DNA of 64,000 nt from the NCBI RefSeq assembly GCF_030646115.1, contig NZ_JAUSMX010000014.1, forward strand, positions 124,001-188,000. Direction: 5' to 3'. The translations under genes and the position numbers were made by a program. Numbering within the stretch: the stretch's first letter is position 1; every line of letters starts with the position of its first letter. Positions 22,207 through 43,609 of the stretch are shown here, piece after piece. Origin of the DNA: Fluviicoccus sp. GTDB taxonomy: Bacteria > Pseudomonadota > Gammaproteobacteria > Pseudomonadales > Moraxellaceae. The notes beneath the pieces were generated by a model that worked only from the letters and a program-made list of their open reading frames with translations, was not told where the DNA came from and did not search any database.

Positions 22207-22318
22207 GGCAATCCCTCCTCAGGTCTGTCACAATCCTAACAACAACGCGGGGAAAGTGTTAAGGGGTTAGCAAAGCGGAATTTTCTTCACGGATTGACGA
22301 ATGGCTACGGTCTTTAAC

Positions 22319-22348
22319 TTGACCCTGATGCAAGCCGGTTGCTATAAA
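22319..22348 (+). promoter_or_regulatory. Candidate sigma70 promoter of hupB
   Basis: TTGACC - 18 nt - TATAAA (GC extended: TTGCTATAAA). Confidence 0.6.
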
Positions 22349-22422
22349 TGGCAACCTGTTGCGGCGCTTCTGTTGCCGCCCGAATCTCTGCCACGCCATC
22401 AAAGCAAAAACAAGGGGAAGAA

Positions 22423-22695
22423 ATGAACAAGTCCGAATTGATTGACGCCATCGCCACCTCTGCCAATCTGACCAAGGCAGATGCCGGCCGGGCACTGGAC
22501 TCCGTCACTGCCGCCATTACCGATGCCCTCAAGGCCGGTGATTCGGTGACTTTGGTGGGTTTTGGCACTTTCGGTGTCAAGGAGCGCGCTGCCCGCACCG
22601 GCCGCAATCCCAAGACCAATGAAAAAATTGAAATCGCTGCCCGCAAGGTTCCCGATTTCAAGGCCGGCAAGGGTTTGAAAGACGCCATTGCCTGA
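22423..22695 (+). CDS. hupB: HU family DNA-binding protein
   Basis: [11 protein letters not shown]...[26 protein letters not shown], canonical HU; upstream of ppiD. Confidence 0.96.
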
Positions 22696-42440: not shown

Positions 42441-42511
42441 GACATTCCGCCTTCACAAAGAAGCAACGATTCCTAGCGGTTACGGTGAATTACCGCCTGT
42501 ACCGTCGACGA

Positions 42512-42559
42512 GATTCTCTGTCACAATGCGTTACAAATTGACGTCTGTGACAGGGAATC
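42512..42559 (+). promoter_or_regulatory. Inverted repeat covering the RBS of the AI-2E family transporter gene
   Basis: GATTCTCTGTCACA (42512-42525) and TGTGACAGGGAATC (42546-42559): 14-bp arms with one G-U type mismatch, 20-nt spacer, right arm contains AGGGA just before ATG 42563. Confidence 0.7.
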
Positions 42560-42562
42560 CCG

Positions 42563-43609
42563 ATGGTGACCAATATCTTTTCCCAGAGCCGCAATGCCCG
42601 TTTCCTGGCCTTTGCCTTTGTCGGCGGCATTTTTCTGCTGTCGGTAAAAATGGGATTGCTGGTGCCGCTGTATTCCGGCCTCTTGGCCTATGCGCTGGTC
42701 CTGAAAACCTCCGGCACCATTGTTGACGAGAAAATCCGTTCCGCCCGTTCGAAGTGGGTGGCCACCGCCCTGGTGGCGACCCTGGTGGTCATCGTGTTGA
42801 TGATTGCCGGGGCAGTGATCCACGTCCTGCTTAAAGCCACCACCGATGTGCATGACCTGTTGCTGCGGATGAGTGAAATCCTGACCTCGGCGCGAAGCTG
42901 GTTGCCGGAGCGGATGAGCCAGGCCATTCCCCAGCAGAGTGAACTGCTCAACAAAATATCGGAATGGCTGCGTACGCATGCCGCCGAAATCGGCACTTTC
43001 GGGCTGGGGGCGTTGAAGGGGGTGGGCTATGTGCTGTTCGGGGTATTGCTGGGGGCGATGGTGGCGGTGTCCGATGCGACCCGTAATGCCCCGCTGGGTC
43101 CGGTCAGCCGCCGTCTGCTGCAACAGGTGCAGGGCCTGCGGGAGTCCTTCTGGCGGGTGGCCTCGGCCCAAATCCGCATTTCCGCGTTGAATACAGCGTT
43201 AACTGCGACGTATCTGGTGGTGGTGCTGCCACTATTTGATCTCTCGCTGCCATTGACCAAGACCCTGATTGCGGTCACTTTTCTGGCTGGCTTGCTGCCG
43301 GTGATCGGCAACCTGATTTCCAATACCGCGATTACGGTTATCAGCCTGAGTGTGTCATTTGAGGTGGCCGTGGCGTCGCTGGTGTTCCTGATCCTCATCC
43401 ACAAGCTGGAATACTTCATCAATGCCCGGATTGTCGGCACCAGCATCAATGCCCGCGCTTGGGAAATCCTGCTCTGGATGCTGGTGATGGAGCGCTTGTT
43501 CGGGCTGGCTGGCGTGGTGGCGGCGCCCGTCTTTTATGCCTGGTTCAAGGAGGAGTGGCATTTGTGGGACCGGGTGATTGAGCAAGAGGTTAAAATGGGA
43601 GGCAGGTAG
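42563..43609 (+). CDS. AI-2E/PerM family transporter-like membrane protein
   Basis: Multiple TM helices, LLPVIGNLISNTAITVISLSVSFEVAVASLVFLILIHKLEYFINARIVG characteristic of AI-2E transporter family. Confidence 0.88.
   Translation: MVTNIFSQSRNARFLAFAFVGGIFLLSVKMGLLVPLYSGLLAYALVLKTSGTIVDEKIRSARSKWVATALVATLVVIVLMIAGAVIHVLLKATTDVHDLLLRMSEILTSARSWLPERMSQAIPQQSELLNKISEWLRTHAAEIGTFGLGALKGVGYVLFGVLLGAMVAVSDATRNAPLGPVSRRLLQQVQGLRESFWRVASAQIRISALNTALTATYLVVVLPLFDLSLPLTKTLIAVTFLAGLLPVIGNLISNTAITVISLSVSFEVAVASLVFLILIHKLEYFINARIVGTSINARAWEILLWMLVMERLFGLAGVVAAPVFYAWFKEEWHLWDRVIEQEVKMGGR

Follow-up and report, generated by a model that had tools for sequence, protein, structure and literature searches.

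In the fold-back inhibition of the IS10 and IS50 transposases, mRNA that reads through from outside the element folds over the ribosome-binding site (RBS), and mRNA from the native promoter does not; the pairing arms derive from the transposon ends. In phage T4, the long transcripts of gene e (lysozyme) are kept silent; short mRNA that is translated well comes from late promoters situated in the DNA that encodes the 5′ strand (PMC3014915). Promoter transcripts of the homing-endonuclease genes I-TevI, I-TevII, I-TevIII, segB, and mobE likewise lack the 5′ part of an RBS-hiding hairpin (PMC2988022). Here we analyze the leader of a membrane protein gene in a 64,000-nucleotide stretch of the Fluviicoccus sp. 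genome (the window, whose numbering is used throughout), for which an arrangement of this kind is the best explanation that we can offer, though a tentative one.

The gene (42563–43609, + strand) encodes a 348-aa member of the AI-2E family (PF01594; Pfam E-value 1e-10; 41.8 bits, above the gathering cut-off of 34.3). Four orthologues that are 69–72% identical were found, in an Agitococcus MAG (L016), a Moraxellaceae MAG (L017), Agitococcus lubricus (L018), and a Moraxellaceae genome (L020), and the start codon is consistent with orthologues of 348 aa. The source genome groups with the Moraxellaceae, the family that holds the closest orthologues; no relatives were found in the viral contigs searched. 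Upstream and codirectional lies a gene for a predicted metal-dependent hydrolase (PF10118; 41580–42440, + strand; Pfam E-value 6.7e-89). The two genes are separated by 122 nt in which no terminator-like site was found, and the hydrolase gene is a possible source of transcripts that read through into the transporter gene. The gene order is the same in L017, where a PF10118 neighbor again precedes the AI-2E gene with no terminator between them, and in L020, where the C-terminus of the hydrolase is readable upstream and a terminator takes the place of the hairpin described below. This intrinsic terminator-like site (L020:1364–1383) consists of an 8-bp stem and a T run. Downstream of the transporter, the window carries a fatty-acid desaturase-type gene (PF00487; 44190–45017).

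The earlier note on this DNA proposed a hairpin that sequesters the RBS of the transporter gene, and all eight of the sequence words on which it built are present in the places assigned to them. The left arm, GATTCTCTGTCACA (42512–42525, + strand), and the right arm, TGTGACAGGGAATC (42546–42559, + strand), which includes the Shine–Dalgarno (SD) sequence AGGGA, are 14 nt long with a 20-nt spacer; they match at 13 of 14 positions by Watson–Crick pairing and at all 14 as RNA if one U-G pair is included. Without gaps, the arms lengthen to 17 nt at 88% (42509–42525 and 42546–42562). In the predicted RNA fold they are continued by an inner stem and by an outer helix, the 5′ strand of which, TACCGTCG (42500–42507, + strand), pairs with 42561–42568 across the ATG. 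The fold has a z-score of −4.5, reaching about −5 to −6 near the start codon, and in the predicted folds of all transcripts beginning at 42509 or farther upstream the SD is fully sequestered.

The strength of this structure was gauged by the opening cost, defined as the predicted energy needed to free positions −15 to +6, computed for a long leader and for a promoter-proximal leader. With the long leader, the transporter gene has a predicted cost of 25.9 kcal/mol, the highest among 256 sampled genes (mean 9.1, sd 3.9), as befits a gene e-type helix that hides the SD and AUG on long transcripts. With the promoter-proximal leader, the cost is an ordinary 7.8 kcal/mol (genome mean 8.2). The difference of 18.1 kcal/mol again ranks first of 256, by a statistic that was devised after the folds had been seen. 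A hairpin over the RBS is thus predicted and exceptional for the genome, and that part of the earlier proposal stands; the mutually exclusive helices that went with it are not populated at any temperature from 20 to 55°C, as discussed below.

Orthologous leaders can be aligned convincingly only at a block that coincides with most of the left arm in the window. The motif TCTCTGTCA[C/G/A]AAT is kept in three of the five leaders, 42–48 nt before the ATG. In the window it lies within a conserved 13-nt block, TCTCTGTCACAAT (42515–42527, + strand; −48), with counterparts TCTCTGTCAGAAT in L016 (−44) and TCTCTGTCAAAAT in L017 (−42); TCTCTGTCANAAT is kept at these three positions with or without a pairing partner. 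The block reads as a presumed extended −10 element of the sigma-70 type, TGT-CANAAT, which in the window is TGT-CACAAT with its hexamer at 42522–42527, and most of which falls within the left arm. The TCTCTGTCANAAT site is the top-scoring promoter in the window, L016, and L017 regions, and in L016 and L017 the sequence TTGTC(G/T) (TTGTCG/TTGTCT) lies 16 nt upstream of the hexamer. L020 has TGTTAAGAT at −37, with the second-best promoter score. In this genome, the 120-nt stretches preceding genes contain TG-N-(C/T)-A-N-AAT 8 times, against 1.4 expected, with two on the opposite strand. The candidate in the window has no good −35 element, its score does not exceed that of shuffled sequence, and the case for it is made by conservation and position, not by score. 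No better promoter was seen upstream of TGTCACAAT (42519–42527), which is the only plausible promoter candidate here and is conserved in orthologues. Judged by the distance to the −10 element, transcription would start at A42533 or A42535 (+ strand), downstream of the left arm.

Two further sequence similarities were noted. The SD region GGAATC is common to the window and L017. A 13-mer shared by the window (42530–42542) and L018, GTYACAAATTGAC, was considered as a motif and dropped because its genome count equals that of the reversed-pattern control. TCTGTCACAAT has just one other copy in the genome, elsewhere in the window at 22224–22234. An ORF whose sequence looks like that of an HU-type DNA-binding protein (22348–22695) follows about 120 nt later, and the copy is possibly another extended −10 promoter.

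From the computed repeat, its fold and rank, the conserved −10-like block, and the lack of a terminator-like site between the genes, we infer how promoter use, transcription start, and read-through may combine at this locus. The transporter's own sigma-70-type extended −10 promoter, TGTCACAAT, would sit inside the left arm. As the promoter largely coincides with that arm, its transcripts would lack it: the native mRNA would begin at ~42533–42535, with an RBS about as exposed as that of the average gene and a start site that is ordinarily accessible. RNA polymerase reading through from the metal-hydrolase gene would produce mRNA with both arms, on which the hairpin would hide the SD and AUG, so that the transporter would be translated poorly. 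Because the left half is the likeliest promoter, silencing by the hairpin is probably limited to transcripts that enter from upstream. With native mRNA open and read-through mRNA silenced, the element would thus uncouple the transporter from the neighboring hydrolase gene. A promoter-in-arm fold-back hairpin directed at read-through mRNA is the explanation that we favor, with confidence somewhat short of an even chance.

The pair of arms found in the window is not conserved in the four orthologues. The accessibility of their start sites was compared as well. In L017 the opening cost is 22.7 kcal/mol with the long leader (first of 70 ATG genes, second of 108 overall) and 13.3 with the short one, and the difference of 9.4 ranks second of 108 and first of the 70 ATG genes. 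The predicted L017 hairpin pairs the shared left block with a right arm of another sequence, UGACAUGAGGGCUG, which covers the AUG, in the same layout as in the window. The costs in L016 are 13.8 and 4.8 kcal/mol, a difference of 9.1 (second of 152; first of 116 ATG genes), and in L018 and L020 the differences are slightly negative. A stricter test used the energy of the duplex that the upstream region forms with the start region. By this measure the window ranks first to third of 160, and L017 ranks first of 70 ATG genes with a shuffle p value of 0.005–0.02 in the main settings (fourth of 70 and p = 0.07 in the widest setting), values for which survival of correction for four orthologues is not clear. 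L016 ranks only 11th to 44th of 116 ATG genes; its stem GCCCTCAT/ATGAGGGC, which resembles the others by opening energy but not by duplex energy, fails as a third case and is not counted as support. As L017 is a single case among four tested and the statistic was chosen after the folds were seen, we regard the support that L017 and L020 lend to the fold-back model as suggestive. The layout is absent from L018, L020, and most distant homologues, and no start-site hairpin was found in the −60 to +15 region of distant AI-2E homologues. One distant homologue, L042, has a raised difference in opening cost between the long and the short leader (16.2 vs 6.2 kcal/mol).

The strongest rival, which we consider somewhat unlikely, is that the complementarity between a conserved −10 region and an SD sequence is a coincidence of this lineage and that the hairpin has no function. 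Such chance pairing has to be weighed since the left block is kept even where its partner is missing: L016 has it in the absence of the window's pairing sequence, and the arms as a pair are not conserved in any of the four orthologues. Nor are inverted repeats matching at 13 of 14 positions rare in themselves, although most of those in the 339 kb of the genome that were scanned are terminators and repeat elements. Against coincidence stand the 14-bp arms together with their inner and outer stems, placed exactly where the opening cost ranks first of 256 genes, the finding that, of 1500 shuffled leaders, only one holds a comparable repeat, and the differently built hairpin on the same left block in L017. 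Among the other repeats of the genome, long dispersed inverted repeats with common arms GTAGGTCGGGCTTCAGCCCGAC (L026:14780–14848 and L039:13849–13917) look like repetitive extragenic palindromes, and a second dispersed family (CCCCCTTTCCAAGGGGGC...) occurs at L032:8116–8363 and L039:16550–16603.

The earlier note also allowed that the palindrome might be a DNA operator, and this alternative, although possible, is improbable. A repressor bound to CTGTCACA-N20-TGTGACAG, across the −10 element and the start site, would block the promoter; the perfect 8-bp half-sites on either side of the putative start, and their location over the promoter, would suit such a role. The 20-nt gap between the half-sites is larger than would be expected of a simple dimer operator, and the palindrome is absent from the four orthologues and occurs once in the genome (3.9 Mb), with no recurrence at other genes, so that an operator serving a regulon is rejected and one with a single target is what could be meant.

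A translational switch, whether riboswitch, thermosensor, or sRNA target, has equally poor prospects. Its transcript would start upstream of 42500, and a signal would open the hairpin; the full sequestration of the SD in transcripts starting at or upstream of 42509 is in keeping with this. A sensing leader needs both a start upstream of 42512, a region that shows no better promoter, and an alternative fold, of which none is predicted. In the 182-nt leader, the main arms are paired with a probability of 0.99 at 20, 30, 37, 45, and 55°C, and the start-site helix is not predicted to melt at any of these temperatures. The competing pairings put forward by the earlier note do not fare well: GATTCC/GGAATC exists as sequence and has a predicted probability of 0.0000, with a penalty of 10.6 kcal/mol if it is forced; the words of the ACGGT/ACCGT stem are likewise present and its probability is 0.00; and the GCGGT/ACCGC stem, whose words are also real, comes and goes with the amount of flank that is folded. 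In the thermodynamic model there is no switch. No Rfam family matches at the gathering score (a microRNA model on the opposite strand gave the single hit, which is weak and below threshold), neither Rfam nor the four orthologous leaders reveal a conserved aptamer with covariation, no conserved sensor domain is seen in those leaders, and our literature search found no paper pairing 'AI-2E family transporter' with 'riboswitch'. Lacking an alternative fold and an Rfam match, the riboswitch and thermosensor readings are unsupported. The earlier note had named unconserved arms and a start downstream of 42526 as outcomes that would tell against it; the arms are indeed unconserved in the four orthologues, and the only plausible promoter would start transcription at ~42533–42535. 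This makes a switch that senses a ligand or temperature unlikely, and what remains of the original reading is a hairpin confined to read-through transcripts.

A broader form of the fold-back model, which we consider doubtful, is that, in this Moraxellaceae lineage, hairpins insulate codirectional neighbors from one another at the translational level where no terminator lies between them, with the promoter of the downstream gene serving as the left arm. The arms would have been rebuilt with different sequences in each species (the window, L017, and perhaps L016), with a terminator as substitute in L020. If so, the lineage would hold a recurrent, fast-evolving chromosomal form of gene e-type fold-back control. 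Should the fold-back model hold for the window itself, it would show on a bacterial chromosome what is known chiefly from phage T4 and transposases: promoter DNA that, when transcribed from upstream, silences its own gene. It would also caution against taking every RBS-sequestering leader for a riboswitch, and a comparison of start-site accessibility in long and short leaders would offer a simple screen for more cases.

Set beside the known systems, the proposed element differs from IS10 and IS50, whose arms come from the ends of the transposon; in the leader of the window we noticed no transposon feature. It shares with I-TevI and its group a promoter position that would spare its transcripts the 5′ part of the hairpin (PMC2988022), in other genes and other hosts. 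In T4 gene e, an SD/AUG helix forms on long read-through transcripts and promoters lie in the region of the 5′ strand (PMC3014915), the place taken here by a presumed, conserved extended −10 element in the left arm without a −35 element. Gene e belongs to a phage and follows the timing of early and late promoters, whereas the element described here lies on a bacterial chromosome and would be served by a putative sigma-70 extended −10 promoter.
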